Shown here: positions 16,347 through 57,865 of the stretch, piece after piece
Position numbering within the stretch: position 1 is the first letter of the stretch
Layout of the letters: every line of letters starts with the position of its first letter
Origin: Stenotrophomonas rhizophila
Lineage (GTDB): Bacteria; Pseudomonadota; Gammaproteobacteria; Xanthomonadales; Xanthomonadaceae
Direction of reading: 5' to 3'
DNA length: 64,000 bases
Assembly: GCF_000661955.1 (NCBI RefSeq)
Contig: NZ_CP007597.1
Location: 186,001 to 250,000, forward strand
The notes under the pieces: model-generated
Told to the model about the DNA's origin: nothing
Databases searched by the model: none
The model's input: the letters and a program-made list of their open reading frames with translations, nothing else
Position numbers and translations under genes: made by a program

Positions 16347-16483
16347 CCAACGCAACACGCTTTCAGAAAAACAGCTCTCTCCGTTTCCCGTCTGCGGCCG
16401 TGTGGCCGCGGCACGGGGGACGTTTGCCCGAAAACACCCATCCACCGCCAGCCCCACGCTGCGGATCGAACAAGGAGACACAG

Positions 16484-19456: not shown

Positions 19457-19509
19457 CGGTTCCACCGCGCCGGCCCCCGCCGGCGCGGTCTCAAGAGGAG
19501 GAGTGTTCC

Positions 19510-21060: not shown

Positions 21061-21495
21061 ATGGGTGTGTGGCAATGGCGGGGCGGCGCCCGCATACGGG
21101 GCTGGCTGGTACTGGCGGGGCTGGCTGCGGCCGGCACCGGCAGCAGCGCCGAACCTGCGGTGCCCGCCACATGGCAGGCCTATGCCGACAGCGCCAGTAG
21201 CGCGCTGGCCGAACGGCTTGCGCGCACCGACGACCCGCGCGTGGTTCGCCTGCAGGCGTTCCTGGAGCAGCACCCCACGACTGCACCGGCCACCCCGCTG
21301 GTGGTGAGCCTGTGGATCGACGCGGGCGGCACGGTGATCCGCAGCCAGTTCGCCTCGCTGGGGGATGCGCAGGCCGACGCCGACCTGCGCGCCGTGCTGG
21401 ACCATGCGCCCCTGCCCGGACCCCCGCCGCCCGGCATGCGCCAGCCGCTGCGCCTGGGGCTGGGGATGCAACCGGCCGAACCCACCGTTCCTTAG
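21061..21495 (+). CDS. Small exported protein with TonB-C-like domain
   Basis: The 144-residue product has a signal peptide or N-terminal anchor (GWLVLAGLAAAGTGSSAE). Its second half (PLVVSLWIDAGGTVIRSQFASLGDAQADADLRAVLDHAPL) follows the alternating pattern of TonB C-terminal domains. It lacks the Pro-rich linker of true TonB. The same fold signature appears in the STN protein at 21934 and the TonB-like protein at 42108, so these probably belong to one system. Convergent with the next gene, 4 bases apart. Function unknown. Confidence 0.72.
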   Translation: MGVWQWRGGARIRGWLVLAGLAAAGTGSSAEPAVPATWQAYADSASSALAERLARTDDPRVVRLQAFLEQHPTTAPATPLVVSLWIDAGGTVIRSQFASLGDAQADADLRAVLDHAPLPGPPPPGMRQPLRLGLGMQPAEPTVP

Positions 21496-21499
21496 TCGC

Positions 21500-21862
21500 T
21501 CACGGACGCACCGGTGCGGGCGGCGGGGCAGGCCGTTGTGGCTGGGTGGACACCCCGAAACTGGTGCCCATGCGCTGCTGGGTGGCGGCCCGGTTGGCCA
21601 GCCCCAGCGCACTGGGCGGTTGGCGCACGCGCTGCTCGGCGGCCATCGGGGCCGTGGATGCCGGTGTCGCCGTCGCCGCCGGCGGTGCCAACATCCGGCT
21701 CATGCAGGCGTAATCGCGGATCCGCTCGCCATTGACCTCCAGCTCGATGCAGCCGGTGCCATCGGCCGCGTCGCCTGCCCGTGCGGCCGGGCCGTACAGG
21801 CCCAGCCACAGCGCGGCACAGGCCAGCACCGCGCACCCCCTGCGTGAAATGTTCTGCATCAT
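21500..21862 (-). CDS. Small exported hypothetical protein
   Basis: The 120-residue product starts MMQNISRRGC with a signal peptide ending near ARAGDA (start at 21862 or 21859). The mature protein has one conserved-looking segment, CIELEVNGERIRDYACMSRML, whose two cysteines could form a disulfide. The remainder is Pro/Ala-rich and low in complexity. I recognise no family. It is divergent from the STN/sigma/FecR genes and ends 4 bases from the convergent TonB-C-like gene. Confidence 0.68.
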   Translation of the reverse strand: MMQNISRRGCAVLACAALWLGLYGPAARAGDAADGTGCIELEVNGERIRDYACMSRMLAPPAATATPASTAPMAAEQRVRQPPSALGLANRAATQQRMGTSFGVSTQPQRPAPPPAPVRP

Positions 21863-21933
21863 GTCTGTCACCGCGTTGCAATGAAGCCGCTCTAACGTGA
21901 CCGGCTTGGCGTTCTGATGCTGGCGTGTCTTGC

Positions 21934-22647
21934 ATGCAGTTTGATGACACCGGGGCGCGGACCCGCCCGCGACCGCTGCTGGGGCTGGCGCTGGGGGCGA
22001 TGTGCAGTGCCGCGCTGGGCTTGTGGCTGCCGTGCGCGGCAGCCGCCGGTGTCGACGACAGCGGCACGCCACGTCGCTTCGACATACCGGCACAACCGTT
22101 GCCGCACGCCTTGCAGTCGTATGGGGAGATCACCGGGGTGGCGGTACTGATCGATGCGCATCTGCTGGGTGGGCTGCGCTCCACGCCGGTCCAGGGCACC
22201 TTTGCGCCGCTGCCTGCGTTGCAGACCCTGCTGGAAGGCACCGGGTTGGCGCCGCGCTTCGTCGACGGCGCGGCCTTCACCCTGGTTCCCGCCGATGCGG
22301 TTGCCGCGGCCGCGCCGTCGGACGCGCCCGCCGCTTCGGCAGGCACGGTGCCGGCACACGCCGCGCGGATCATCCAGCGCTCGCTTGAGCAGGCGCTGTG
22401 CGGCACCCGCGCCACGCGCCCGGGCAGCTACCGTGCCGTGCTGCAACTCTGGTTGAATGCCGACCACCGCGTTGAAAAAAGCACCCTGCTGCAGGGCAGC
22501 GGCGACACCGCGCGCGACGATGCGCTGCTGGCCCGCGTGCGCGGGCTTGCGCTGCCGGGCCTGCCCAGTGGCCTGCCGCAGCCGATCACGCTGCAGCTGC
22601 TGCCGCGCAGCGCGAACGCAACGGTGCCCTGCAAGGGCGCGCCGTGA
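21934..22647 (+). CDS. STN-domain protein with TonB-C-like C-terminus
   Basis: The 237-residue exported protein has a signal peptide ending near AAAAG. A secretin/TonB short N-terminal (STN) domain follows at ~50-115 (RRFDIPAQPLPHALQSYGEITGVAVLI and the GTFAPLPALQTLLEGTGL repeat). After an Ala-rich linker, a TonB-C-like domain at ~155-230 starts YRAVLQLWLNADHRVEKS. STN domains normally signal from TonB-dependent transducers to FecR-type proteins. Here the domain is detached from any receptor and sits directly before the sigma and FecR genes (GTGA overlap), so it likely relays the periplasmic signal. A GTG at 21925 is an alternative start. Confidence 0.82.
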   Translation: MQFDDTGARTRPRPLLGLALGAMCSAALGLWLPCAAAAGVDDSGTPRRFDIPAQPLPHALQSYGEITGVAVLIDAHLLGGLRSTPVQGTFAPLPALQTLLEGTGLAPRFVDGAAFTLVPADAVAAAAPSDAPAASAGTVPAHAARIIQRSLEQALCGTRATRPGSYRAVLQLWLNADHRVEKSTLLQGSGDTARDDALLARVRGLALPGLPSGLPQPITLQLLPRSANATVPCKGAP

Positions 22648-23174
22648 GCAGCCTGGGCAGCGTGCTGCTGGAACACTACGAGGCGTTCCGCAAGCGCCTG
22701 CGGCGGCGGCTCGGCTCGGACGACCTGGCGCTGGATGCGCTGCAGGAAACCTGGCTGCGGGTGGAGCGCATGGGCGGCGCACAGCCGCAGCGCAATCCGG
22801 TGGCCTACCTGTTCCGGATGGCGGTCAACGCCGCCAGCGATCAGCGCAGCGCCCACGCCCGGGTGCTCACCGGCGCCGAGGTGGAGGCGCTGATGGAAGA
22901 GGGCACCGACCACCTGGACCCGGCCACGGTCACCTTTGGCCGTGCGGAGATGAGCGCGCTCACCGATGCACTGCGCGAACTGCCCGCGCGCCAGCGCGCC
23001 ATCCTGATTGCCGCCCGCGTTGAACATCGCCCCATCGAGGCCATTGCTGCCGAACACGGCGTGTCCGCGCGGATGATCGGCAAAGACCTGAAGAAGGCGC
23101 TGCAGCATTGCGCCGCACGGCTGGACCGGCCGCTGGTGCAGCGGTTCGGTCCCGGCGCCGGAAAACCGTCATGA
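22644..23174 (+). CDS. ECF RNA polymerase sigma factor (FecI type)
   Basis: The 176-residue protein has sigma region 2 at ~5-70 (YEAFRKRLRRRLGSDDLALDALQETWLRV, PVAYLFRMAVNAASDQRS) and region 4 at ~110-160 (LRELPARQRAILIAARVEHRPIEAIAAEHGVS). Order and length fit FecI-type sigma factors. The GTG start overlaps the previous stop (GTGA), and the gene overlaps the FecR gene by ATGA, so the three are translated together. The nearest likely target is the giant exoprotein gene that starts at 24430. Confidence 0.92.
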   Translation: MSSLGSVLLEHYEAFRKRLRRRLGSDDLALDALQETWLRVERMGGAQPQRNPVAYLFRMAVNAASDQRSAHARVLTGAEVEALMEEGTDHLDPATVTFGRAEMSALTDALRELPARQRAILIAARVEHRPIEAIAAEHGVSARMIGKDLKKALQHCAARLDRPLVQRFGPGAGKPS

Positions 23175-24163
23175 CTGGTATGAACCCGCTTGCCTCCACC
23201 GTGATTCCGCCCGACCTGCAGCAGCAGGCGCACGACTGGCTGCTGCGCCTGCAGGGCGCGCCCGTCACCCAGGCCGACGCCGATGCCTTCCGGCGCTGGC
23301 GCGCGCTCGACCCGCGGCATGCGGCGGCGTTCGCGCAGGCGCGTGCCCTGTGGAATGCGCTGGGCCCTGCACTGCAGGCCGGCAACGCCGCCGCGGCACC
23401 ACCCGCCGCCGCGTCGCTGCCATTGCCCGTGCCCACCGCCCACGCGCGCCCGCGCAGCCGGGTCAACCGCACGCGCCGCGCGTTCCTCGGCGGTGCCGTG
23501 GCGGCAGCCGCCGGCGGCTGGCTGATGTGGCCGGAGATGGACGCGCTGGGGGCCGACTTCCGCACCGCCACCGGCGAGCAGCGCACGCTGGAGATCCAGG
23601 GTGTCGCGGTGGCCATGGGCACCCGCACCGACCTGCGCCGCGTCGACGGCGGCACCGGCCTGCAACTGGGCCAGGGCGAAGCGCAGTTCAGCGTGCCTGC
23701 GCGCGGCCGCGCCGACTTCGCGATCCATGTCGACGGTGCCCGGGTCACGCCGGCCGCCGGCGCGCGGATCAATGTGCGTTGCGTCGGTGCCGACGCGCGC
23801 GTCACTTGCCTGGCCGGCAGCGCCACGCTGACGCGCGGCACGCGCACAGTGACGCTGCAGCCGGGCTGGCAGGCGCGCCTGGGCGGCGACCGCATCGCCT
23901 CGGTCGCGCAGGTGGCCACCGACCGCATCGACGCGTGGCGTCAAGGGTGGCTGGTGGCCGATGACCAGCCACTGGCCGACGTGGTGGACGAGATCAACCG
24001 CTACCGCCCCGGCCGCATCGTCATCACCGGCACGGCGCTGCAGGCGCGGCGGGTGCAGGCGCGCATTCCCCTGCGTGACCTGGACACCTTCATCGACCTG
24101 GTACGCGACGTGTACGGCGCGCGCGTGGTGCACATGCCCGGCGGCGTGGTCCTGCTCGGCTGA
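23171..24163 (+). CDS. FecR-family sigma regulator
   Basis: This 330-residue inner-membrane protein has an N-terminal cytoplasmic anti-sigma part with the DUF4880 signature (AHDWLLRLQGAPVTQADADAFRRWRALDPRHAAAFAQARALW). A single membrane segment lies near 98-116 after RTRRAF. The periplasmic FecR domain (TATGEQRTLEI through GQGEAQFSV and AGARINVRC) is followed by a C-terminal STN-contacting region (LADVVDEINRYRPGRIVITG). The ATG overlaps the sigma stop (ATGA). It should hold or activate the ECF sigma depending on the signal relayed from outside. Confidence 0.93.
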   Translation: MTGMNPLASTVIPPDLQQQAHDWLLRLQGAPVTQADADAFRRWRALDPRHAAAFAQARALWNALGPALQAGNAAAAPPAAASLPLPVPTAHARPRSRVNRTRRAFLGGAVAAAAGGWLMWPEMDALGADFRTATGEQRTLEIQGVAVAMGTRTDLRRVDGGTGLQLGQGEAQFSVPARGRADFAIHVDGARVTPAAGARINVRCVGADARVTCLAGSATLTRGTRTVTLQPGWQARLGGDRIASVAQVATDRIDAWRQGWLVADDQPLADVVDEINRYRPGRIVITGTALQARRVQARIPLRDLDTFIDLVRDVYGARVVHMPGGVVLLG

Positions 24164-24266
24164 GCAGGCCGCGCATCCGTGCGCGATTGCAGCACACCGC
24201 GATGACAGCGCGATGACGCGCACGGCACAAATCGCAGTGGCGTCATGTGCAGATGAATTTTTTGTT

Positions 24267-24285
24267 GCAACGGTTCAGTCGTTGC
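24267..24285. promoter_or_regulatory. Inverted repeat GCAACG-N7-CGTTGC in the leader of the exoprotein gene
   Basis: The 6-base arms lie in an AT-rich pocket (AATTTTTTGTTGC) about 145 bases before the exoprotein start. The 265-bp gap 24164-24429 contains no gene, so the promoter of the exoprotein operon must lie here if the FecR gene does not read through. I cannot identify a certain ECF-type -35/-10 pair; a CGTCTT at 24295-24300 is a possible -10. Confidence 0.3.
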
Positions 24286-24429
24286 CACCTATCCGCGTCT
24301 TATCCAGCGTAACAAGCGCAACGCATTGCCCTGTCACGCTGTTTCCCGTTGCCAGGGAAAGGCGTGCCGCGTAACGCGGTGACCTGCGCTTGTCCTTATC
24401 AGCGAACGATATTGCGACGGGTGACGGCG

Positions 24430-27400
24430 ATGGTGAAGCAGCAGAACGGTTCGGTTGTCGGTGCATCCCTGCGTACGCCGCAGGTACGTCCGCTGGCGCA
24501 GGCCATCGCAGTGATGCTGGTGGCCGGCGGCGTGGTGGCCAGCGCCACCGCGCAGCAGGCCTTCAGCCCGGCGTGGTTCGCCAACAAGGGCGTGCAGCAG
24601 CAGAACGCGGTGCAGAGCGGCCGCCTGCCCAACGGCATGCCGTCCAACCTGGTGCGCACCGATGCGCAGGCGCAGAAGGCGCGCGACACGCTCAAGACCT
24701 CGCTGGACAATCTCAACACCGCCGCGCAGGCCATCGCCATGCAGCAGCGCATGCAGCAGACCGCGCGTGATGCCGCGCGCCTGCGTGCCGGCAGCGTGCC
24801 CGACGGGTTGGGCGAAGGTGGCCTGAAGGTGGACGACGACGCGCTGACCCGCGGCTGGTCCAACGCCAGTGGCCCGGTGCAGAGCAGCAAGGACGGCACC
24901 ACCACCGTCAGCATCGCGCAGACCGCCGACAAGGCCATCCTCAACTGGGAAACCTTCAACGTCGGCCGCAACACCGTGGTCGACTTCGACCAGCAGGCCG
25001 GCTGGTCGCTGCTCAACCGGGTCAATGACCCCTCCGCGCGACCCTCGCAGATCCTCGGCCGCATCCAGGGCCAGGGCACGGTGATGCTGGTCAACCGCAA
25101 TGGCGTGGTGTTCGACGGCGGCAGCCAGGTCAACGTCAAGAACCTGGCCGCCGCGGCGGTGAACATCAGCGATGCGCAGTTCCGCAAGGGCCTGTACAGC
25201 GACGCGCAGGGCAGCGGCTTCATTCCCACCTTCGGCAACGAGGTGACCACCACCGCCAGCAGCTTCAGCCATGCCGCCGCCAGCGGCGATGTGGTGGTCG
25301 AGCGCGGCGCGCAGATCACCACGCACGTGCCGGGCTCGGTCACCGACGGCGGTGGCTATGTGCTCATGCTGGGCCGCCAGGTGCACAACCACGGCCAGAT
25401 CACCACCGCCAACGGCCAGACCACGCTGGCTGCCGGCGATGCCTTCGTGATCCGCAAGGGCCTGGGCACCGACCAGAACCTGACCTCCACCACCCGTGGC
25501 AACGTGGTCAACACGCTGCGCAGCCCGGTGGCGGCCGCTGCCGATGCAGCCCCCGCCAGCGGCGTGGTCAGCAACACCGGCCTGGTCCAGGCCAGCACCG
25601 GTGACATCACCCTGGCCGGTCACGACGTGCGCCAGCAGGGCACGCTGCTGTCCACCACCTCGGTGCATACGCGCGGCACCGTGCACCTGCAGACCGAGCG
25701 CAGCGACACCACCGGCCGGGTCACGTTCGGCGAGGGCAGCACCACCGCGATCGTGCTCGACCCCAGCGCCACCACCGCGCTGGACGTGCAGCGCGAAACC
25801 CTGGTGCAGGACTCGGACAAGCTGGGTGACGGCATTGCCCACCGCCGTGACCAGTCGCTCGTCCAGGTCAGCAGCGGCGGCGACGTCGGCTTCGAGGCCG
25901 GCAGCCTCACCCTGGCCACCGGCGGCCAGGTGTTCGTGGATGCCGTGGGCAGCAGTACGGTGGGCGAGGGCGCGCGCATCGACGTGGCCGGCTACGTCGG
26001 CGTCAAGATCGCGATGGAAGCCAACAACGTCCAGATCAACGTGCAGGGCAACGAGCAGCGCGACGCGCCGCTCAACCGCGACGATAAATCGCTCAACAGC
26101 AAGAACATCTGGCTGGACCGCCGCGACCTGGTGCTGGTGCCGGCCGGCACCAACGGCTACGAGGCCGACCGCTGGTACACCGCCGGCGGCCTGCTCGAAG
26201 TAGGCGGCTACCTGGGCGTCACCGGGCACGGCATCGGCGAGTGGTCGGCGCAGGGCGGCACCGTGCAGTTCAGCGGTGGCAACGTGGCCACCGCGCGCGG
26301 GTCCAGCATCAACCTGTCCGGCGGCGCGCTGGACGTGCAGACCGGCTACGTCAACCTGACCCACCTCAAGGGCGCCGACGGCACGCTGTACAACGCCTCC
26401 ACCGCCCCCGGCGACCTGCTTTACACCGGCCTGTACCGCGGCTTTGAAGACACCCACGCGCGCTGGGGAAACACCGCGTTCTACTACAACCCGCTGATCG
26501 CGCCGCAGCGCAAGCTGGAGAACGGCTACACCGTGGGCCGCGACGCCGGCCGGCTGATCGTGTCCACCGCCCAGGCGCAGCTGCAGGGCGAGGTGGACAC
26601 CACCACCTTCCAGGGCGAGCGCCAGCAGCGTGCGCGCGACGCCGCGCTGGATGGTTACCAGCAGGCGCAGACCAGCGTGGCCCGCCAGGGCCAGCTGGTG
26701 GTGGGCGGCTACCTGCCGTTCTACGACAAGGACAGCGGCCAGCAGCGCTTCAGCCCTGCGCCGCTGGTCGAGCGGGTCACCGTCGGTGAGGGCACCCACG
26801 CCGACGCCGGCACGATCGCGCTGGACGCGGCGTGGCTCAACGCGCAGGCGTTCGGTGGCGTGGCGGTGTACGCGCACGCCGGCATCAACGTGGACCAGGC
26901 CGTCGAAGTGGCGCACGGCGGCAGCATCGCCCTGCATGCCAGCGACGTGCGCATCAACGCCGACCTGCGCGCCCGTGGCGGCAGCATCGCGCTGGGCGAC
27001 ATGGTGGTGCAGCACACGGCGTCCGGTACGCCGTGGCTCGATCTGCCGATCAGTGCGCGCCCGGGCGACACGCTGCTGCACCAGGTCATGGTGGGCGACA
27101 ACATCACCCTCGATGCGCGCGGCCTGTGGACCAACCAATGGCAGGATCCGGCGTCCATCGCCGGGTTGCCGTTCGTCGACGGCGGCAGCGTGTCGCTGCG
27201 CAGCACCGGCAACGTCAGCCTGGGCAAGGGCAGCCTGATCGATGTGTCTTCCGGCGCGGCGATGGGCGTGGACGGCGACGTGGCGGGCGGCAAGGGCGGC
27301 AACGTCACCCTGGCCGCCGGCCAGAACATGGGCAGCGGCGTGCTGTCGCTGGATGGCAGCATCCGCGCGCACGGGGTCAAGGGCGGCGGCGCGCTCAACA

Positions 27401-30400
27401 TCGAAAACGGCACGCTGGTGAGCATCGGCGGCGACATCCCCGACGCCGTCGAGCACCTGGCCGCCGGGCAGGCCAGCACCCTGCCGGTGCGCCTGGCCGC
27501 CGATGTCATCCTGCAGCCTGGCGACATCATTCCGCTGACCTTCTCCATCACCGTTACCCACGTGTCCGGCGGCAAGCCGATGCCGGTGACGGTGCGGCCG
27601 GAAGTGAGCAGCACCAAGCCGGTCACCACCCAGGCGGCGTGGGTGCTGCCCACCACCGTGCAGCTGGCCAACTACGGCCCCGTGCGCTACGCCGGCGAGA
27701 TCCTGCCGGCCGGCACCACGCTGTGGACCATTGCCGACCTGCAGGCCGGCTACGTGGTGCCGGCCAATGTGTTCCCCGGTGGCCTGCCGATTCCGGCGCA
27801 GACCTCGCGCTACACCGCCGGCAGCGTGGCCACCGCCGCCATCACGGTACCGGCCGGCACACGCCTGCCGGTGGGCACGGTGTGGCAGCGCGAAGTGCCG
27901 GTGCAGTCGTTCCTGGCGCTGGACACCGGCCTGTTCCAGTCCGGCTTCAAGCAGTACAACGTGATCGGCCGCGACGGCGTGTCGGTGGTGGACGGTGCGC
28001 AGCTGGAGGTGGCCATGCCGCTGCTGCAGGTCGACCTCGCCGCCGCGCGTGCACTGGCCAGCGGCGAGGATCCGCACGGGGCGCTGTCGACCTGGCTGCC
28101 GCCGCTGCAGCAGGATGATCCGGCAACGGGCGCGGTGACGCTGCGCAAGGGCGCGGGCCTGTCATTGACGGCCGGTACCGCGCAGAACGCCGCTGACCTG
28201 GAGATCGGCACGGGCAGCCGGATCACGGTGGATCCGGGCCAGGCCATCCAGCTGACCGGCAATGCGCAGATCACCCTCGACGGCACGCTGCAGGCACGCG
28301 GTGGCCGCATCAGCGTTCTCGGCGGCGACCTGGGCGAAGGCCCGCTGCTCAACCGCCCCAACGGCATGCCGAACGCGCGCTCGATCTGGATCGGCGAGCA
28401 CGCCCTGCTGGACGTGTCCGGCGCCGCCTACACCGCGCTGGGTGCCACGGGCGACCGCCAGGGCAAGGTGCTGGACGGCGGCACCATCGAAATCGGCGCG
28501 CGGCATGACCTGGCCTCGCGCGACCTTCCGGCCATCGATGCGTTCGTGGTGGTGCGCGAGGGCGCCCGCCTGGAGGCGTCCGGCGCGCAGGCGGTGCTGG
28601 ACCTGCCCGGCCTCGGCCAGACCCCCGTGGCCAGCCACGGCGGCGTGATCGCGCTGAGCGCCAGCAATGGCTTGTTCGTGGATGGCCGCCTGCATGCCGC
28701 CGCCGGTGGCAGCGGTGCGCGAGGCGGCACGCTGGCGTTGAACCTGGAAACCCCGGTCTACGGCCAGGTTGACCGCTGGACCAGCAAGGGCGCCGAGGTG
28801 GACGATGGCGTGCGCATACCGCGCGAGCTGATCATGGAACAGCAGTACAGCGGCAGCGGCCTGGGGGCCGACGTGGTGGCCGGTGAACGCGACCCGACCC
28901 TGGCCTACGGCAAGGCGCGCTACGGCGTGGATGCCATCCAGGCCGGTGGCTTCGACACCGCCTCGCTGTACGTCAACGGCCTGCTTGATTTCGACGGCAA
29001 CGTGGCGCTCAGCATGCGCCAGGCGCTGTACCTCACCGCCAGCGCGCTGGGCCTGGCCACCGACGCCGCACGCGACAGCCAGGTCCGGTTGGAGGCACCG
29101 TACCTGCGGCTGTCCGGCGCGGCACGTCGCCAGATCGACAACACGATCATGCCCAACCCGGTCACCGGGTCGCGCAATGCCACCCCGGCCACCGGTTCGC
29201 TGGGCGTGGCCACGCTGGCCGACGCCGCGGCGATCACCTTCGCCGGCGACCTGGTCGACGTGGTGGGCGCGGTCGGCTTCGGGGCAAAGGGCGAGATCGT
29301 GCGCAACGCCGTCGATCCGCTGGTGGTCGAACGCGATGCCTTCGGCACGGTGCGCATCCAGAGCCAGGGCGACCTGCGCCTGCGCGCCGCCGACTTGTTC
29401 TCGCCGGGCAACACCACCCTGGCGGCCGCGCAGATCTACGGCAGCGGCAACGTCACCGTGGGCCTGCGCAGCGCGTACAACGAGTGGGGCGCGCTGACCA
29501 CCGAACTGGACCCGGACCGCGTGCTGGACATCCAGCGCGTGGGCACCGCGTTGCCGCCGCAGCCGTACAGCGTGTTCGGCAACATGAGCTTCGGCGCGGC
29601 GGTGATCAACCAGGGCGGCGTGCTGCGCGCGCCGCTGGGCACCATCACCCTGGGTCGCGCCGACGGCACCGGCCACACCGGGGTGGTCAACCTGCTGCCG
29701 GGCAGCGTGACCTCGGTCAGCGCCAAGGGCCTGGTGATGCCCTACGGCGGCACGGTCGATGGGCTGGTCTACAACTACAACGGCGTGGACGTGGCCTACC
29801 AGGGCGTGGGCGGCGAACCGAAGGTGGAGTTCCGCTCGCACGCGGTGAACGCGCAGGAAGGCGCGGTGCTGGACCTGTCCGGCGGCGGCGAACTCACCGG
29901 TGCGGCGTTCCTGTCCGGCCGCGGCGGCTCCACCGACGCGCGCCTGCACCCGCTGGTGCAGATGGGCCGCGACGGCTTCACCCTGCCGGGCCTGGCCACC
30001 AACCCGGTGTATGCCATCGTGCCGGGCGTGCAGGCCGGGCAGGCGCCGCTGGGCAGCGAGCGCGGCGCCGGCGACCCGGCCATCGGCCAGCAGGTCACCA
30101 TCGGCGCCGGTGTGCCGGGCTTGCCGGCCGGCACCTATACCCTGTTGCCGTCCACCTATGCATTGCTGCCCGGCGCGTTCCGGGTGGAACTCAACGGCCT
30201 GGCCGGCAGCGCGGCGGCTTTCGGCACCACCCAGGCCATGCGCAACGGCTCGTGGAGCACCTCGGCACGGCTGGGTATTGCCAACACCGGCAGCAGCGAC
30301 GTGCTGCCCACCCAGCTGGTGGTGACCGCCGCCGATACCCTGCGCAGCTACGCGCAGTACAACGAAACCAGTTACGCAACCTTTGCCCTGCAGCAGGCCG

Positions 30401-38052: not shown

Positions 38053-38207
38053 GCATGACGCCCGACATTTCCACGGCCACCGCGCGTGGCCACGGCCCGG
38101 TGCGGCCAACGCGCCGCAACTGCCTTGTGCGTGCAACGCCGGTGTTACCCGCGTTGCGCACCATCGCGGCCACCGCAGCGCGTGTTCCTTCCCTCTTCCG
38201 CAGTGAG

Positions 38208-39842
38208 ATGCTCCTGATGTCTTCAACCCCCAAGGCGTTGGCCTGGTCGCCGCTGCCGCTGTGCCTGCTGTGCGTGATGCCGCTGGCCGCCGCCCAGCAG
38301 GCACCGGCGGCCGGCACCCCGGCCACGCCCGCTGCCAACGAAACGCCGGCCGCTGCGCGCGTCACCATCAACGAGTACCTGGTACGCGGCAACAGCGTGC
38401 TGGATGCACGCGACATCGAACGCGCGGTCACCCCGCACCTGGGCCCCGACCGCACCCTGCAGGACGTGGACGCCGCGCGGCTGGCGCTGCAGGCCGCGTA
38501 CCAGCGCAAGGGCTACCAGTCGGTCTACGTCGACCTGCCCGAACAGCAGGTCAGCGGTGGCGTGGTGATCCTGCAGGTGACCGAAACCCGCGTGGGCCAG
38601 GTCAACGTGGTGGGCGCGCGCTACAACGATGCCGCGCGCCTGCGCGAGCGCGTGCCGGCGCTGCAGCCGGGCCAGGTGCCTGATTTCGACGGCGCGCAGC
38701 GCGAACTCACCGAACTCAACCGCGGCGGCAAGCGCCAGGTGGTGCCGCTGGTCAAACAAGGCGCTGCCGACGGCACCATGGACGTGGAGCTGAAGGTCGA
38801 CGACAAGTCGCCTTGGCGCTTCAGCGCCACCGTCAACAACGACCACAGCGTGGACACCGAGCCGCTGCGCAGCATCGTCAGCATCGGCCACGACAACCTG
38901 TGGCAGAAAGACCACACCGCCTCGCTGACCTTCTTCGCCGCCCCGCAGGACCTGGACCAGGCCAACGTGCTGTCGGCGTCCTACGGCTTGCCGCTGGGCA
39001 GCCCGGACTGGATGCTGGAATTCTCCGGCTACCGCTCCGACAGCAACGTGGTCTCCAGCGGCCAGACCAACGTCACCGGCAAGGGCCATGCGCTGGGCAT
39101 CAAGATCAACCACAGCCTGCCGATGACCGGCGCGTGGTGGCACCAGCTGTCGGCCGGCATCGACTTCAAGGACCTGGACGAATCGGTGGCCATGGTGGGC
39201 CAGGCGTCCGACTTCGCACCGCTCAAGTACGCACCGCTGACGCTGGGCTACAGCGGCTTCCGCCAGGGCGACAAGCACCAGCTGAGCGTGGCGCTGCAGG
39301 CCGTGTTCGGCGCGCGCAGCCTGCTGGGCTATGGCAGCAGCGACGACGAGTTCGACTGGAAGCGCGCCTACGCCGATTCCAGCTTCTTCGCGCTCAAGCT
39401 GGACCTCAGCGACACCTACACCCTGGACAGCGGCGCGCAGTGGTTCGCGCGCATCTCCGCGCAGATGACCGACCAGCCGCTGGTCTCCGGCGAGCAGTTC
39501 GCCGCCGGTGGCATGTACACCACGCGCGGCTACCGCTCGGCCGAAGGCATCGGCGATTACGGCGCGCTGGCCACGCTGGAATGGCGCACCCGCCCGTTCG
39601 CGCTGTGGGGCCTGCAGGACTGGCGCCTGTACGCCTTCGTCGATGGCGCCTGGCTGGGCCTGCGCCGGCCGCTACCCGAGCAGGCCGACAGCAGCTGGAT
39701 GTCCGCCGCCGGCCTGGGCAGCAGCCTGCGCATCAGCGACCACTTCAACCTGCGCCTGGACTACGGCCACACGCTCAGCGATGGCCCCACCACCACCAAG
39801 GGCGCGAACCGACTGCACCTGAGCGTCGGCGCCAGTTACTGA
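38208..39842 (+). CDS. ShlB/FhaC/HecB-family two-partner secretion transporter (TpsB)
   Basis: The ~544-residue outer-membrane protein has a signal peptide (LCLLCVMPLAAAQQ). POTRA domains follow (EYLVRGNSVLDARDIERAVTPHLG; AYQRKGYQSVYVDLPEQQVSGGVVILQVTE; QVNVVGARYNDAARLRERVPALQPGQ), then a 16-strand barrel with VNNDHSVDTEP, TRGYRSAEGIGDYGALATLEWR and the terminal LHLSVGASY. It secretes the exoprotein encoded 155 bases upstream, whose TPS domain its POTRAs should recognise. The start is uncertain: ATG 38208, ATG 38217 or ATG 38055 are in frame, and only the first two place the signal peptide at the N-terminus. Confidence 0.93.
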   Translation: MLLMSSTPKALAWSPLPLCLLCVMPLAAAQQAPAAGTPATPAANETPAAARVTINEYLVRGNSVLDARDIERAVTPHLGPDRTLQDVDAARLALQAAYQRKGYQSVYVDLPEQQVSGGVVILQVTETRVGQVNVVGARYNDAARLRERVPALQPGQVPDFDGAQRELTELNRGGKRQVVPLVKQGAADGTMDVELKVDDKSPWRFSATVNNDHSVDTEPLRSIVSIGHDNLWQKDHTASLTFFAAPQDLDQANVLSASYGLPLGSPDWMLEFSGYRSDSNVVSSGQTNVTGKGHALGIKINHSLPMTGAWWHQLSAGIDFKDLDESVAMVGQASDFAPLKYAPLTLGYSGFRQGDKHQLSVALQAVFGARSLLGYGSSDDEFDWKRAYADSSFFALKLDLSDTYTLDSGAQWFARISAQMTDQPLVSGEQFAAGGMYTTRGYRSAEGIGDYGALATLEWRTRPFALWGLQDWRLYAFVDGAWLGLRRPLPEQADSSWMSAAGLGSSLRISDHFNLRLDYGHTLSDGPTTTKGANRLHLSVGASY

Positions 39843-39875
39843 GCCCGACCCCCGACTTCCCCGGAGATATTTCCC

Positions 39876-41678
39876 ATGCAACGCCTTCTTGCCCTGTTGT
39901 TGTTCTGCCTGAGCATGTGCACGCTCGGCACCGCCCGTGCCGATACCCCGTGGTGGCAGGCCGACTGGAAGTACCGCAAGCCCATCACCGTGGACGCCGG
40001 CCCCAACGGCGCCGCGCTCGGCGGCAACCTCGGCCGCACCCCCGTGCTGGTGCGCCTGCACACCGGCAACTTCGCCTTCGACGGCGTGGCCGACGGCGGC
40101 AGCGACATCCGCTTCATCGGTGCCGACGGCCGCACCGTGCTCAACCACCAGGTGGAGCAGTACGACGCCAGCCTGGGCATGGCCCTGATCTGGGTGGACG
40201 TGCCGGCCATCAGCGGCACCGCACCGCAGACCCTGTGGATGTACTACGGCAACGCCGGTGCACCGGCGGCCGGCAACGGCCAGCGCGTGTTCGACCCGGA
40301 CTACAGCGCCGTGTACCACTTCGCCGAAGGCAACGAGCCGCGCGACACCACCGCCTACGTCAACCACCCCAGCGGCCCGTTCAAGGCCGCCGACGGCGCC
40401 ATCATCGGGCGCGGTGCGCAGTTGGCCGGCCAGCCGCTGCACCTGCCCGGTTCGCCGTCGCTGGCCATCGCCGCCAACGGCGCGATGACCGTCTCGGCCT
40501 GGATCAAGCCGGCCCAGCTCGGCCCGGACCAGGCCGTCTACAGCCGCCGCGAAGGCGACAACGTGCTGATCATCGGCCTCGACAACGGCGTGCCCTACGT
40601 GCGCGTCAACCAGCAGCGCAGCCAACCGGTGCCGGCGCTGGCGGCGGGGCAGTGGGCGCATCTGGCGGTAACTGCCAGCGATGGCGCGGTGGTGCTGTAC
40701 GTGGGCGGCCGCGAGGCCACCCGTATCGAGGCCAGCCTGCCGGCGCTGGCCGGTGAGGCGCTGCTGGGCGCCGACGTGGCCCCGGCCGCGGGCGCCACCG
40801 CAGCAGTGGCCATGGCCCAGCCGTTCCTGGGCGACATCGACGAAGTGCGCGTGTCCAAGGTGGCCCGCCCGGCCACCCAGCTGCTGGCCGACGCCAGTGC
40901 GCAGGGCGCCGAATCGCGCCTGGTTGCCTTCGGCGAAGACGAACAGTCCGCCGGCGTCAGCCACTTCGGTTTCATCCTCAAGGCGATGCCGGTCGACGCC
41001 TGGGTGGTGGTGGCCATGCTCGGCCTGATGCTGCTGCTGTCGTGGGCCATCATGATCACCAAGAGTCGCTACTTCGGCATCGTCGCCAAGGCCAACGAAG
41101 CCTTCACCGTGCAGTACCGCAAGGTCACCGGCGCACCGGTGGCCTCGCTGCAGGCACTGGAACGCACCGGCACGCTGGCCCCGCAGATCCGCGAGAGCTC
41201 CACCCTGTGGCGCCTGTACCGCATCGCGATGGAAGAAATGGACGGGCGCGGCTCGCACCACCACGGCCTCACCGCGGCGGCCATCACCTCCATCCGCGCC
41301 TCGATGGACGCCGAAGTCACCCGTGAAACCGAGCGCATGTCCAAGCGCATGAACTGGCTGTCCACCACCATCGAAGGTGCGCCGTACATCGGCCTGTTCG
41401 GCACGGTGATCGGCATCATGCTGGTGTTCGTGGTGGCCGCGATGGCCGGTGCGGTGGACATCAACTCCGTTGCGCCCGGCATGGCCGCCGCGCTGCTGTG
41501 TACCGCGGCCGGCCTGGGCGTAGCGATCCCGGCGTTGTTTGGCTACAACTGGCTGGCCTCGCGTGCCGAAGCCATTGCCGCGGACATGTCGGTGTTCGTT
41601 GACGAGTTCACCGCGCGCCTGGCCGAAGAGTTCGACCGCAGCGCACCGGCCGCCGTCGCGCGTCCGGTCCAGGCCTGA
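39876..41678 (+). CDS. DUF2341 and LamG-like sensor region fused to an ExbB/TolQ-type proton channel
   Basis: The 600-residue protein has a signal peptide (ending TARAD). A DUF2341-like domain follows at ~25-130 (WWQADWKYRKPITVDAG, GSDIRFIGADGRTVLNHQVEQYD, LWMYYGNAGA), then a LamG/concanavalin-like domain at ~150-330 (SAWIKPAQLG, GQWAHLAVTASDGAVVLYVGG, IDEVRVSKVARPATQL). The C-terminal 230 residues are an ExbB/MotA-type channel with TM segments near 372-394, 505-528 and 540-562 (IEGAPYIGLFGTVIGIMLVF; AALLCTAAGLGVAIPALFGYN). Ordinary ExbB is ~230-250 residues without this exported front. It is directly followed by ExbD and TonB-like genes. Confidence 0.88.
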   Translation: MQRLLALLLFCLSMCTLGTARADTPWWQADWKYRKPITVDAGPNGAALGGNLGRTPVLVRLHTGNFAFDGVADGGSDIRFIGADGRTVLNHQVEQYDASLGMALIWVDVPAISGTAPQTLWMYYGNAGAPAAGNGQRVFDPDYSAVYHFAEGNEPRDTTAYVNHPSGPFKAADGAIIGRGAQLAGQPLHLPGSPSLAIAANGAMTVSAWIKPAQLGPDQAVYSRREGDNVLIIGLDNGVPYVRVNQQRSQPVPALAAGQWAHLAVTASDGAVVLYVGGREATRIEASLPALAGEALLGADVAPAAGATAAVAMAQPFLGDIDEVRVSKVARPATQLLADASAQGAESRLVAFGEDEQSAGVSHFGFILKAMPVDAWVVVAMLGLMLLLSWAIMITKSRYFGIVAKANEAFTVQYRKVTGAPVASLQALERTGTLAPQIRESSTLWRLYRIAMEEMDGRGSHHHGLTAAAITSIRASMDAEVTRETERMSKRMNWLSTTIEGAPYIGLFGTVIGIMLVFVVAAMAGAVDINSVAPGMAAALLCTAAGLGVAIPALFGYNWLASRAEAIAADMSVFVDEFTARLAEEFDRSAPAAVARPVQA

Positions 41679-41689
41679 GGCGCACGACC

Positions 41690-42103
41690 ATGGCCAGGGC
41701 AAAACGGTTCGGCATCAAGAAGCGCGAAAAGGGCATCAACGTCACCCCGTTCGTCGACGTGCTGCTGGTGGTGCTGGTGATCTTCATCCTCACCAGCAAC
41801 GCCTCCATTCCGGGAATCCAGGTCAACCTGCCCAAGGCCAGTTCCAGCATGGCGCTGGAAAAGCCGAAGACCAAGGCGATCACCGTCGACAACGCCGGGC
41901 AGATCTTCCTCGACGCCTACCCGGTGAGCCTGGCCGAGCTGGAAGACCGCCTGCGCACCGAAAAGGCACTCACCCCCGACTTCCCGGTGATCGTGCGCGG
42001 CGACGCCCAGGTGCAGTACGCACGCGTGGTGGAGGTTCTCGACCTGCTGCGCCGGATCGACCTCAACCAGGTTGGCCTGGTGACCGGCAAACCACAGGGG
42101 TGA
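41690..42103 (+). CDS. exbD: ExbD-family biopolymer transport protein
   Basis: The 137-residue protein has a short cytoplasmic head (FGIKKREKGINVTPFVDVLLVVLVIFI). It carries the family's essential Asp in NVTPFVDVLLV inside the single membrane segment and a periplasmic domain ending in RIDLNQVGLVTGK. It forms the proton channel with the ExbB-type protein encoded 11 bases upstream. The TonB-like gene follows after 4 bases, so the three are co-transcribed. Confidence 0.93.
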   Translation: MARAKRFGIKKREKGINVTPFVDVLLVVLVIFILTSNASIPGIQVNLPKASSSMALEKPKTKAITVDNAGQIFLDAYPVSLAELEDRLRTEKALTPDFPVIVRGDAQVQYARVVEVLDLLRRIDLNQVGLVTGKPQG

Positions 42104-42107
42104 TGGC

Positions 42108-42797
42108 GTGACTGCACTCAATCCCCGTGCGCAGGGCGCGGCCGGTTGGCAGCGCTGGTGGCCGCTGGCCGCGCTGCTGGCCGGCATCGCGCTGCTCGCG
42201 CTGCTGGCATGGCTGCTGCTGTTCAAGGACACCGCCAGTACCCGCCGCCCGCAGGTGGAGGTGCCGATGGTGATGCTGCCCCCACCGCCGCCCCCGCCAC
42301 CGCCGGAACCCGAGCCCGAACCCGAACCCAAGCCCGAAGAGGTCATGCCCGAACCGGAGCCGCTGGACGAGGTGCCCAAGCCCACCGAGGAAGCGCCCAC
42401 CCCGGACACCGCCGACCCGGTGACCATGGACGCCACCGCGCAGGCCGGTACCGACAGTTTCGGCATCCAGTCCGGCAGCGGCGGTGGCCGCAGTGGCACC
42501 GGCGGCGGCGGCGCTGGCAACGGCACGTACGGGCGCTACCTGGGCTACGTGCTGCAGCAGGCCGTCGCACGCGACGAGCAGGTTCGCCGGCTGTCGTTCC
42601 AGCTCACCGTCAACATCTGGCTGGACCCGACCGGTGCGGTCACGCGGGTGGAACTGCTGCGTGGCAGCGGCAATCCCGAGGCCGACGAACGCGTGCTGCA
42701 GGCCATCCGCGCGGTGGGCCGCATCGACGAGCGCCCGCCGGCGTCGCTGGATTTCCCGGCGCGCGTGCTGGTGCAAGGCCGGCGCCCGGCCGGCTAG
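42108..42797 (+). CDS. TonB-like energy transducer
   Basis: The 229-residue protein has a cytoplasmic N-terminus and one membrane anchor at ~17-40 (LAALLAGIALLALLAWLLLF). The periplasmic linker is Pro/Glu/Lys-rich (~58-105, runs of P followed by EPEPEPEPKPEE), and the C-terminal TonB domain (LSFQLTVNIWLDPTGAVTRVELLRGSGNPEADERVLQAI) sits at ~155-225. The conventional TonB YP motif is not evident. The GTG start lies 4 bases after exbD. It should couple the adjacent channel to an outer-membrane partner, possibly the porin-like or FhaC-like product of the same operon. Confidence 0.88.
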   Translation: MTALNPRAQGAAGWQRWWPLAALLAGIALLALLAWLLLFKDTASTRRPQVEVPMVMLPPPPPPPPPEPEPEPEPKPEEVMPEPEPLDEVPKPTEEAPTPDTADPVTMDATAQAGTDSFGIQSGSGGGRSGTGGGGAGNGTYGRYLGYVLQQAVARDEQVRRLSFQLTVNIWLDPTGAVTRVELLRGSGNPEADERVLQAIRAVGRIDERPPASLDFPARVLVQGRRPAG

Positions 42798-42846
42798 GCG
42801 CGGCCGCCTCCTTCTTCCCGACTTTCCTTTTTCTGCGAGCAAGCTG

Positions 42847-44577
42847 ATGACCCGTTCAACCTATTCCGCCGCGCTGCTGGGCCTGCGCCGTTCCGCCCTC
42901 GCCGCCGGTGTCGTGCTGGTGCTGGCCAGCGGCGCCGCCCATGCCCAGGACGGCAGCGGCGAAAGCACGATGATCAAGCTGATCCGTGGCCTGATCGACA
43001 GCGGCGCGCTCAAGCCCGAGGCGGGCCAGGCGCTGCTGCTGGAAGCCCAGCGCGAAGCGGCCGTGGCACGCCCGGCAGCCGCGGCCGGCGCCATCGCCGC
43101 GCAACCCGGCGACGTGCGCGTGCCGTACATCCCGCAGACCGTGCGCGATGAGATCCGCGAGGAGCTCAAGACCAGCGTGATGGCCCAGGCCAAGGCCGAA
43201 GGTTGGGCCGCACCGGACCAGGTGCCCGACTGGACCCAGCGCCTGCGCGTGCAGGGCGACGTGCGCGTGCGCAATGAAAGCCGCCTGTATTCGGACCGCA
43301 ACAGCGACATCGAAGTGGATTGGGCGCGGATCAACGCCGGCAACGGTTACGACGTCAACGGCAACACCAACCTGGGCCTGCCGCCGCTGCGCAACACCCG
43401 CGAAGACCGCAACAATTCCTGGCGCATCCGCGCGCGCCTGGGCGTGGTGGCCGAGCTGGGCGAGCACACCCGTGCCGGCGTGCGCCTGGCCACCGGCAAC
43501 GACAACGGCCCGGTGTCGTCCACCCAGACCCTGGGCGGCGGCCTGGCCAAGAAGGACGCCTGGCTCGACCAGGCCTGGCTGTCCTACACACCGGTGCAGG
43601 GCCTGGACATCATCGGCGGCCGCTTCGGCAACCCGTACTGGTCCACCGACACGCTGTTCTCCAACGACCTCAACTTCGACGGCCTGGCCTTCAAGTACGC
43701 CTACCCGCTGGGTGGCGAGGGGCTGTCGCTGTTCGCCACGCTGGGCCTGACCCCGCTGGAGTACTCGTCCGACGGTTTCCCCAACACCAGCCAGACCAAG
43801 ATGAAGAGCGAGAACAAGTGGCTCAACGGCGTGCAGGTCGGCGCCGACTGGCAGTTCGGCGACCAGCAGAAGCTGCGCGCCGCAGTGGGCTACTTCGACT
43901 TCCGCAACATCGCCGGCGAATACTCCCAGCCCTGCGCGCTGTACGCCGGTGCCGACCACTGCAGCAGCGACTGGTCGCGCCCGACGTTCATGCAGAAGGG
44001 CAACACGCTGATGCTGCTGCGGAACATCGCGCTCGATCCGCTCGACCCGGCCAACACCCCGATGCCGCAGTACGTGGGCCTGGCCTCCGAGTTCGAACTG
44101 CTGGACCTCAACCTGGCCTGGGAAACCCCCACCTTCGCCGGTTACGCGCTGCGCGTGGAAGGCCATGGCATCAAGAACCTCGCCTTCGACCGCAACCGCA
44201 TGTGGTCGCGCGCGCAGGGCGGCGTCGTCACCAACCTGGGCGCGGCTGCCAACGGCGTGGCCGGCCCGCAGGACATCCAGAGCGGTGACATGGCCTACAT
44301 GGCGCAGGCCACCTTCGGCCAGCTGGCGCTCAAGCAGGCCGGCGACTGGAACGTGTGGCTGGGCTACAAGCGCCTGGATGCCGATGCGCTGCCCGACGCC
44401 TACAACGATTCCAACTTCCACCTGGGCGGCACCAATGCCAAGGGCTACTACCTGGGCAGCTCCTACATGTTCGACAAGAACGTGTGGCTGACCGGCCGCT
44501 GGATGGCGGCCAAGGAAGTCACCGGCGCGCCGCAGTCCATCGACGTCTTCCAGCTGGAAGTGAACGCTGGCTTCTGA
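42847..44577 (+). CDS. Putative outer-membrane porin
   Basis: The 576-residue protein has a signal peptide (cleavage after GAAHA). A coiled or amphipathic stretch follows (MIKLIRGLIDSGALKPEAGQALLLEAQREA), then a beta-barrel rich in alternating strands (WRIRARLGVVAELGEHTRAGVRLATGND; WLNGVQVGADWQFG; YYLGSSYMFDKNVWLTGRWM) ending in the aromatic VFQLEVNAGF. It fits the putative porin family seen in xanthomonads beside ExbBD/TonB genes. The substrate is unknown. Position between the TonB-like and SapC genes suggests it is the outer-membrane client of this TonB set. Confidence 0.85.
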   Translation: MTRSTYSAALLGLRRSALAAGVVLVLASGAAHAQDGSGESTMIKLIRGLIDSGALKPEAGQALLLEAQREAAVARPAAAAGAIAAQPGDVRVPYIPQTVRDEIREELKTSVMAQAKAEGWAAPDQVPDWTQRLRVQGDVRVRNESRLYSDRNSDIEVDWARINAGNGYDVNGNTNLGLPPLRNTREDRNNSWRIRARLGVVAELGEHTRAGVRLATGNDNGPVSSTQTLGGGLAKKDAWLDQAWLSYTPVQGLDIIGGRFGNPYWSTDTLFSNDLNFDGLAFKYAYPLGGEGLSLFATLGLTPLEYSSDGFPNTSQTKMKSENKWLNGVQVGADWQFGDQQKLRAAVGYFDFRNIAGEYSQPCALYAGADHCSSDWSRPTFMQKGNTLMLLRNIALDPLDPANTPMPQYVGLASEFELLDLNLAWETPTFAGYALRVEGHGIKNLAFDRNRMWSRAQGGVVTNLGAAANGVAGPQDIQSGDMAYMAQATFGQLALKQAGDWNVWLGYKRLDADALPDAYNDSNFHLGGTNAKGYYLGSSYMFDKNVWLTGRWMAAKEVTGAPQSIDVFQLEVNAGF

Positions 44578-44625
44578 CCTGTTGGCCGGTGCACCCGCGC
44601 CGGCCGTTTCCCTGCTGGATACCCC

Positions 44626-45411
44626 ATGACCACTGACGACACCCTGCACACGCTGCCTGACGCGCCCGACCAGACCGCGCCCGATGCCATCGAAGCCGAC
44701 GCCGCCGCACCGGCCTCCCCGCCGCTGTACCGCACCCCGGTGGTGCTCTCTTCGCACGACCACGCGCACTGGCGCCTGCTGCCCGGCGACGCCGCGTTCG
44801 CCGCCGCCAGCCACGCCGTTCCGCTGGTCATCGGCGAATTCGCCGCGGCCGCCCGCGATTACCCGCTGGTGTTCGTCGGCGCCGACGCCGCCCCGGTGGC
44901 CGTGCTCGGCCTGCAGGCCGAACACAACCGCTTCGTGGTCGCCGACCACTGGCAAACCGGCACCTACGTGCCCGCGTATGTGCGCCGCTACCCGTTCGTG
45001 TTCGCCCGCACCACCGACCCGGACGGCCACGTGCTGGCCATCGACGCCGACGCCCCGATGCTGCGCACCAGTGGCGACGAAGGCCAGCCCCTGTTCGACA
45101 CCGACGGCCAGCCCAGCGCGCTCACCCGCCAGGCCCTGGCGTTCTGCGAGGCGTTCACCCGCGACGCCACCGCCACGGCCGCCTTCAGCGCCGCGCTGGT
45201 CACCGCCGGCGTGCTGGTGGAGCGCCAGGCCGACGTCGTGCATCCCGACGGCCGCCAGTCCAGCCTGCTCGGCTTCCAGCTGATCGACGCCGAACGCTTC
45301 GCCGCACTCCCCGACGCCACCGTGCTGGCCTGGCACCGCCAAGGCTGGTTGGCGCTGGTGCATTTCCACATGGCCTCGCTGGCCCGCTTCAAGGACCTGC
45401 TCACCGCCTGA
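44626..45411 (+). CDS. SapC-family protein
   Basis: The 261-residue protein has no signal peptide. Its core matches SapC-like proteins: HWRLLPGDAAFAAASHAVPLVIGEFAAAARDYPLVFVG, then YVPAYVRRYPFVFA, and a C-terminal LLGFQLIDAERFAALPD. SapC in Campylobacter is linked to the surface-layer export locus, but the biochemical role is unknown. Similar genes often follow exoprotein or S-layer genes, which fits its place as last gene of the two-partner secretion operon. Confidence 0.85.
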   Translation: MTTDDTLHTLPDAPDQTAPDAIEADAAAPASPPLYRTPVVLSSHDHAHWRLLPGDAAFAAASHAVPLVIGEFAAAARDYPLVFVGADAAPVAVLGLQAEHNRFVVADHWQTGTYVPAYVRRYPFVFARTTDPDGHVLAIDADAPMLRTSGDEGQPLFDTDGQPSALTRQALAFCEAFTRDATATAAFSAALVTAGVLVERQADVVHPDGRQSSLLGFQLIDAERFAALPDATVLAWHRQGWLALVHFHMASLARFKDLLTA

Positions 45412-55392: not shown

Positions 55393-55656
55393 GAGGGTTC
55401 TCCTTTGCGGAGCAACCGTACTGCGCAGGTTCGGTTATTCAAAATCCCGATATTTCGCGCTGCTGCCAAGGAGAAAAAGGCGTCCACCGCCACTGATTGG
55501 CAGATCTGAAGTCCGCCGTGGCTGCTGGAGAGGCAGTAACGCGACCGAAGTAGACTTCACGTTTCGACCAATGGACTGGTCCGTTTTTCACAGCGCCCGT
55601 TGCGGGAAGCTCGCCAAGCCGCCAATATGCGGAAACTGCCAAGGAAAAGGGGGGCT

Positions 55657-56463: not shown

Positions 56464-56700
56464 CGACGTGCAAAACGTAGATGGCTCCTCCTATCATAGA
56501 GCAGTTCAACTGCGACGATCCGCTTACGTTTGACGTTGCCGAGCGCCTTCCACAGGCGTTTAGGCAATTCCGGAGAAGCGCAAAAGCACCACCGTGATGC
56601 GTCCTTGTAATTCGAGTGTCCTTGATTGCGTTGCAATCCTCCTTCTCTGGGTCGAATTAAAATCTTGAATCCCATAAAAAATAACTTACTGAATCAGGTC

Positions 56701-57474: not shown

Positions 57475-57568
57475 GGGTGCCTAGCAGGGAAACCTCGGCG
57501 CCTCTTGGGCAAGACTGCGGGTCCAGGTCAATCCCGGTCAATATTGGCCAGAGATGTAAAGGGTCGCT

Positions 57569-57865
57569 TTAGCGCCGAACTCGTTTAGAAACCCGAAGCC
57601 TGTCTAGTATGTCGTCTGAGAAATAGTATTCAACGCACGATTTGAAGTAGTGCGCGTTCTCAATCGAAGAGAATTCGAGTATGAGCGGGTTGCTGACGGA
57701 GAACTTTGCGTTTGTTAGTCCGCCGATTGAGCCCCATCCTTCAATGGCGCACATCAGACCACGCAACATGCTGGCAATCTCATCCGCGTCGCTAGCCTTC
57801 ACTGTATTCATATATACACTAACTCTCGGCGTATAGTTCGGATCCAGAAGCTCCTGAATTTTCAT
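57569..57865 (-). CDS. Hypothetical protein, 98 residues
   Basis: The product (MKIQELLDPNYTPRVSVYMNT start, YYFSDDILDRLRVSKRVRR end) is a small mixed alpha/beta protein without signal peptide or membrane segment. It shares the low GC of the gene to its left, with which it is convergent. I recognise no family. Possible partner or immunity-type gene of the low-GC patch, without direct evidence. Confidence 0.6.
   Translation of the reverse strand: MKIQELLDPNYTPRVSVYMNTVKASDADEIASMLRGLMCAIEGWGSIGGLTNAKFSVSNPLILEFSSIENAHYFKSCVEYYFSDDILDRLRVSKRVRR

Follow-up and report, generated by a model that had tools for sequence, protein, structure and literature searches.

The window analysed here is a 64-kb stretch of the Stenotrophomonas rhizophila genome (bases 186001-250000 of a 4.65 Mb genome in one contig). 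It contains a locus for a giant two-partner secretion (TPS) exoprotein, TpsA, together with its transporter TpsB, a TonB-ExbB-ExbD set, a porin and a group of signalling genes. This locus is almost certainly of the PUMA3 type, the Stenotrophomonas counterpart of vreAIR-pdtA-pdtB-exbB2-exbD2-tonB4-PA0696 from Pseudomonas aeruginosa. As to its function, we tentatively favour, at slightly less than an even chance, a giant exoprotein of the type Vb kind that has a dedicated proton-motive-force (PMF) coupler, in which the PMF controls the holding, completing or releasing of TpsA in a manner similar to SiiAB. We favour PMF control because the set is tied to TpsA proteins with the domain DUF3739, because the tail of TpsA, though variable elsewhere, keeps a conserved peptide, and because SiiAB provides a precedent.

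Composition of the locus and its PUMA3 counterpart

Parts were assigned from open reading frames and Pfam profiles, and the coordinates of DUF3739 and of the TPS start were converted from protein positions. A VreA-like sensor (21925-22647, plus strand) combines an STN domain with a TonB-type C-terminal domain and has no barrel; its STN match (PF07660) scores 20.8 bits, below the Pfam cut-off of 28.4. It is followed on the same strand by a VreI-like extracytoplasmic function (ECF) sigma factor (22644-23174; PF08281, PF04542) and a VreR-like FecR-type anti-sigma factor (23171-24163; PF16220, i.e. DUF4880, and PF04773, FecR). The coordinates give a 4-nt overlap for each of these two gene pairs. 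TpsA, with 4540 residues (24430-38052, plus strand), carries a TPS domain (PF05860, TIGR01901) and DUF3739 (37441-37770; PF12545, 136 bits). Downstream on the plus strand lie TpsB, the outer-membrane transporter (38217-39842; POTRA_2, ShlB), a fusion of DUF2341 (PF10102) and a lectin-like domain (PF13385, Laminin_G_3) to an ExbB/TolQ-type motor subunit (39876-41678; PF01618), an ExbD/TolR-type motor subunit (41690-42103; PF02472), a TonB with a TonB_2/TolA-type C-terminal domain (42108-42797; PF13103, 29 bits; TIGR01352), a Porin_5 barrel (42847-44577; PF16930, 614 bits) and a SapC-family protein (44626-45411; PF07277). The TPS domain of TpsA and the POTRA-barrel architecture of TpsB are those of a type Vb pair. 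Going downstream from the FecR gene, the intergenic gaps calculated from the coordinates are 266, 164, 33, 11, 4, 49 and 48 nt.

All parts named in the initial annotation, from the STN protein to SapC, were thus recovered with Pfam. Its description of one direction with short gaps is correct from 21925 to 45411, where every gene is on the plus strand, but does not extend to the preceding gene at 21500-21862, which is on the minus strand. The STN protein had been placed at 21061; the gene at 21061-21495 codes for a small secreted protein whose end resembles TonB, and the STN gene begins at 21925. ExbB is indeed a fusion, but the part described as sensor-like consists of DUF2341 and a concanavalin-type domain, preceded by an apparent signal peptide. 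Signal peptides were judged by eye throughout.

It had also been stated that no characterised system of this composition was known. The same composition is found in the PUMA3 regulon of P. aeruginosa, with the members vreA, vreI, vreR, pdtA, pdtB, exbB2, exbD2, tonB4 and the putative porin gene PA0696 (PMC2729926, PMC4971064, PMC7035377). A composition without precedent is thereby ruled out. Both the parts and their order are shared with the window, including the succession tpsB-exbB-exbD-tonB-porin (PMC7035377, PMC4971064). VreA is likewise bilobal, with an STN-type and a TolA/TonB-type domain, and its gene overlaps vreI by 4 bp (PMC2729926), as the sensor and sigma genes do in the window; in the window, too, the ECF sigma factor and the FecR-type regulator adjoin the sensor. 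At the protein level, the window TpsA aligns with a 4177-residue TpsA from P. aeruginosa (P0345) in two blocks, one of 3471 aligned positions at 45% identity and one of 1029 at 52%, and the ExbB fusion is 51% identical to a DUF2341-lectin-ExbB protein from P. aeruginosa over 613 positions. Judged by family and size, these two proteins are probably PdtA (PA0690) and ExbB2 (PA0693).

VreI of P. aeruginosa controls the hxc genes, pdtA, phdA, pdtB, exbB2, exbD2, tonB4 and PA0696 onwards, and the TonB set of this regulon has been termed 'still uncharacterized' (PMC2729926, PMC4971064, PMC7035377). As early as 2009, PUMA3 clusters had been described elsewhere alongside homologues of TPS, ExbBD and PA0696 (PMC2729926). 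PUMA3 differs from the window in carrying phdA and in having PA0697, YbjN and peptidyl-prolyl isomerase (PPIase) genes where the window has SapC and a small TonB-like gene. Hidden Markov models built from relatives found no PA0697-, YbjN- or PPIase-like gene at 15001-52000 of the window. As other modules lack these genes in their vicinity too, we treat them as accessory. On a Klebsiella quasipneumoniae plasmid the genes are arranged as in P. aeruginosa, the YbjN, PPIase and LysR genes included.

Linkage of the motor set to DUF3739 TpsA

Classical two-partner secretion is regarded as independent of any energy source, as the initial annotation pointed out and as is stated in print for type V secretion (PMC5422565). 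Among 398 Pseudomonadota genomes, 141 contain TPS domains, 14 a DUF3739 TpsA and 13 DUF2341, and all 13 of the latter are DUF3739 genomes. DUF2341 is thus present in 13/14 DUF3739 genomes versus 0/127 other TPS genomes, from which we conclude that the coupler goes with one TPS class (Fisher tests give 1.7e-23 by genome and 2.7e-16 by genus, relatedness not being modelled in either). The odd genome, G016, is explained by a contig break: a contig of 3.77 kb starts inside ExbB and continues with ExbD, TonB and the porin. Within 149 genomes of the family, DUF2341 occurs in 11 and DUF3739 in 13, with 11 in common; the remaining two are G016 and G043. Full-length Porin_5 (more than 600 bits) is found in 12 of the 149, namely the same 11 and G016, and 12 further genomes have weaker partial matches of at most 90 bits. 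The genomes G345 and G522 each combine three DUF3739 TpsA with a single DUF2341-ExbB, which we count in favour of PMF control.

All 21 DUF2341 places outside the window's own genome, from 19 genomes, were fetched. ExbB, ExbD and TonB are adjacent in 21/21, and the porin follows TonB in 20/21; in the exception, G413, a different contig carries the porin together with TpsB and TpsA. In 18/21, TpsB is located directly 5' of ExbB; TpsA stands between the two in two further cases, and in one TpsB is on another contig. In 17 named loci (L008-L024), ExbD was found in 17, TonB in 16, and porin, TpsA and TpsB in 14 each; wherever a part is missing, its place falls outside the contig or the fetched stretch. 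The fused ExbB is also encoded on 11/24 matched plasmid records, from Klebsiella, Burkholderia, Cupriavidus, Variovorax and others. All 11 carry ExbD, TonB, TpsB and porin as well, and 10 of them DUF3739; for the plasmid locus L054, only a TPS-domain end was found in the fetched stretch. In L050 the motor is about 16 kb away from TpsA.

Chance neighbourhood of the parts is ruled out by the genome counts and the neighbourhoods. The assignment of the TonB-ExbBD-porin set to the TPS pair, made in the initial annotation, holds over whole genomes, in which no independent occurrence was found apart from the exception G043. Distances between module members are also correlated over 29-33 loci (r 0.81-0.95; 0/999 permutations as high, relatedness again not being modelled), which shows shared descent and not function.

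Some observations concern individual loci. The window ExbB fusion has 86-95% identity to proteins from Stenotrophomonas records. The closest relative (L013, JAHREJ010000011.1; ExbB 95%) is labelled Bacillus subtilis, which we attribute to mislabelling or contamination of the assembly; SapC was not found 3' of its porin. The plant-associated Pseudomonas chlororaphis is also among the species listed with the fused ExbB. Two tandem ExbD genes are present in L047 (3220-4062) and L051 (21595-22456; annotated likewise). In L048 and L057 the module resides on Klebsiella plasmids; the L048 copy looks decayed, as its TpsB is split over two frames and no more than a fragment of TpsA was found. L025-L027 are not ExbB and were excluded from the ExbB set.

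The TpsA tail, the motor and possible control by the proton motive force

C-terminal of DUF3739, a spacer is followed by the peptide PSTISVQVLGFG (37879-37914, plus strand; TpsA residues 4484-4495), which was identified by pattern and column information. The pattern PSxISVQVLGFG occurs in 50/53 TpsA tails versus 0/1148 other stretches of the same proteins. The three misses are L055 3-911 (an artefact reading frame), L072 and L083. The 53 tails include near relatives, and L015 and L033 are probably one genome counted twice. The information content amounts to 2.0-4.1 bits per column within the peptide and to 0.9-2.2 bits on either side. From 20 TpsA of other classes, taken from genomes without DUF3739, two cut by contig ends were dropped, and the pattern is present in 0/18 of the remaining complete proteins. 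It was also found in 120/120 listed homologues, which are the best 120 of 1749, mostly from P. aeruginosa, and count more as one case than as 120. A second conserved piece, YDPDSVVQVVGMG (37957-37995, plus strand), lies 3' of the tail peptide. In a model of 470 TpsA residues (predicted local distance difference test, pLDDT, 74.7) the beta-helix ends near model residue 370 and a helix spans residues 384-408, while residues 407-440, including the peptide, have pLDDT values below 50 and are predicted to be disordered. A peptide that is conserved and yet disordered on its own would look like a docking peptide.

Further features distinguish this pair. The TPS domain is normally found at the mature N-terminus of TpsA. 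Here, the profile begins near residue 147, and in most relatives a conserved stretch of about 100 residues precedes the TPS domain; by eye this extension is absent from L022, L046, L047, L051 and L082. In TpsB, roughly 3-45 low-complexity residues, mostly fewer than 30, separate the apparent signal peptide from POTRA, as judged by eye for 44 untruncated of 46 sequences including that of the window. Measured against the length of the plug helix and linker of FhaC, most of these proteins seem to offer little or no room for such a plug. The nearest solved sequence to TpsB is CdiB (6wim).

The motor residues are kept in the relatives: TPxxD in 54/54 ExbD and GTVxG in 50/50 ExbB. The profile scores of the motor are nearer to TolQ/TolR than to ExbB/ExbD, all of them being below the equivalog cut-offs. 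DUF2341 and the lectin-type domain at the N-terminus of ExbB would presumably lie in the periplasm. DUF2341 is named as an extra domain of function not known (PMC12505986). The passages of PMC12204202 make no mention of DUF2341, two-partner or TpsB, exbB2 in those of PMC8599685 is tolQ, and DUF3739 was not mentioned in the literature searched. The C-terminal domain of the STN sensor is homologous to that of the module TonB (hhalign 99.6%, E 8e-24). This homology, the conserved tail peptide and the apparent shortage of space for a TpsB plug helix are new here.

In the TonB linker (42400-42530), a segment VTMDA..AQAG.D.FGI..G.GGG occurs shortly before the end domain, and a loose form of this pattern is found in 40/47 relatives. 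A loose D-box pattern (after PMC10907165) matched 2/47 TonB relatives.

Under PMF control, the module may work as follows. As in classical TPS, the folding of TpsA would take it across the outer membrane by way of TpsB. The final 90 or so residues of TpsA, bearing the short strand-forming peptide, would remain in the periplasm. The Tol-like ExbB-ExbD motor could then act via TonB on the tail peptide or on TpsB and thereby hold, complete or release the exoprotein, comparable to the presumed action of SiiAB on the giant adhesin SiiE. The STN protein, with its end domain of the TonB kind, would report to FecR and the sigma factor. A bolder version, which we regard as improbable, treats DUF3739 proteins as a separate, tethered and powered TPS class. 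TonB would bind PSxISVQVLGFG by strand addition from the periplasm, and the Tol-like motor, with a lectin-type domain presumably in the periplasm, would set holding versus release. The TonB-type domain of the STN sensor may compete for the peptide, so that the sigma factor would read exoproteins in transit or displayed. One hub of TpsB, motor and porin would serve several TpsA in some genomes.

Several points weigh against PMF control. The tails share descent, and 50/53 does not represent 50 independent cases. The genome G043 is an unexplained exception: DUF2341 and Porin_5 are both absent from it, and its DUF3739 fragment lies where a contig begins. The porin is as constant across the modules as the motor, which fits uptake equally well. 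Its N-terminal periplasmic segment also has conserved residues, so that docking may occur there instead. SiiE is secreted into the medium independently of SiiAB (PMC12607715). Insertions in tpsA, tpsB, PA0695 (the tonB homologue) and PA0696 of P. aeruginosa left virulence in zebrafish at the wild-type level; this result decides nothing about secretion. No test of energised secretion or uptake was found in the literature searched, outside of which lies Faure 2014 on PdtA/PdtB.

The main rival is energised uptake through the porin, which we consider unlikely on balance. A substrate, perhaps a source of phosphorus, would be captured at the surface by TpsA and then imported by the TonB set and the porin in a manner similar to HxuABC (PMC5422565). 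ExbB, ExbD and TonB are present with their motor residues, all 12 of the 149 family genomes with full-length Porin_5 have a DUF3739 TpsA, and the porin accompanies the fused ExbB on 11/11 plasmid records. The P. aeruginosa locus is also under PhoB control (PMC4971064). In the window, two weak candidate pho boxes are located 5' of tpsA (24191-24219, minus strand). With 12/14 and 11/14 matches to the consensus they are the best two of the 64 kb, in reverse orientation; no consistent site was found in the relatives. Against uptake stands the porin itself. TonB-dependent receptors have barrels of 22 strands, but the porin model, whose confidence is moderate (pLDDT 75.8), has N-terminal helices and 16 long strands and lacks a plug domain. 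The barrel looks open in this model, and it has no evident need for energy. Moreover, Pfam profiles detected no TonB-dependent receptor within the module; one is encoded upstream at 16400-19456, beside glycosidase genes.

It is very improbable that the motor and TonB energise the STN-FecR-sigma sensor instead of secretion. TonB is used in cell-surface signalling through TonB-dependent receptors, and the homologous end domains of sensor and TonB would suit such a role. However, the full STN-ECF-FecR trio is found within the fetched stretches of only 10/19 genomes versus 19/19 for the motor. A vreA deletion, furthermore, left expression of the regulon unchanged under phosphate starvation (PMC4971064). 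Equally doubtful is an upkeep function, with a Tol-like motor and porin stabilising the envelope during very large export and making no contact to TpsA or TpsB; the TolQ/TolR-like scores agree with it, but it leaves both the specificity for DUF3739 genomes (13/14 versus 0/127) and the conserved tail peptide unexplained.

The remaining genes are peripheral to this argument. SapC as a core member is ruled out by the neighbourhoods, as it follows the porin in 5/17 named loci. The gene at 21061-21495 (plus strand) codes for an accessory small secreted protein of 144 residues with a TonB/TolA-like C-terminal fold, PF13103 being matched only at E=0.037; tblastn located relatives in 15 fetched loci, of which 11 are small genes of their own and 4 form part of TonB or STN genes. 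The minus-strand gene at 21500-21862 (120 residues, no Pfam family) has an apparent signal peptide and two Cys close together. It is a conserved companion of the module, with tblastn relatives in 25 fetched loci, or 22 distinct modules once overlapping stretches were merged. Tandem repeats in the module region amount to five short, low-copy rows. Upstream, 12990-20865 contains a GH31 gene with carbohydrate-binding domains, the TonB-dependent receptor mentioned above and a GH109-type gene; this looks like a glycan-use locus and is apparently separate from the module. A low-GC patch at 55600-58000 (GC 0.49 in 56001-58000), with an HSDR_N-type restriction fragment at 55600-56463, is possibly a recent insertion.

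Comparison with known systems

The module is not a new system, as the same set is already known, though unexplained, in Pseudomonas. Under PMF control, ExbB2-ExbD2-TonB4 of P. aeruginosa gains a testable function, and a peptide of 12 residues can be named for testing. The question becomes a sharp one: why does one class of an 'energy-free' secretion pathway carry its own motor? Type V secretion is described as energy-free, and a TPS class with its own proton-driven motor would refine this rule.

With FhaB/FhaC and CdiA/CdiB the window pair shares the TPS domain, POTRA and the barrel. It differs from them in the conserved extension (about 100 residues) that precedes the TPS domain, in DUF3739, in the tail peptide and in the dedicated motor, and its TpsB appears to have little room for a plug helix. 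HxuABC, for haem uptake in Haemophilus influenzae, likewise ties a TPS pair to a TonB-dependent function (PMC5422565). HxuC, however, is a TonB-dependent receptor, whereas the window has a Porin_5 barrel and its own TonB-ExbBD set instead. SiiAB is a proton-driven pair of the Mot/Exb/Tol kind that is devoted to the giant adhesin SiiE of Salmonella type I secretion (PMC12607715), and we liken this dedication of one motor to one giant adhesin to the window module. The analogy is functional only, since SiiE is exported by a type I (ABC) exporter and TpsA by TpsB; the available description of SiiAB also mentions no TonB or porin, both of which are present in the window. With PMF control of TpsA, giant adhesins that have a motor of their own would number two, the first being SiiE with SiiAB.

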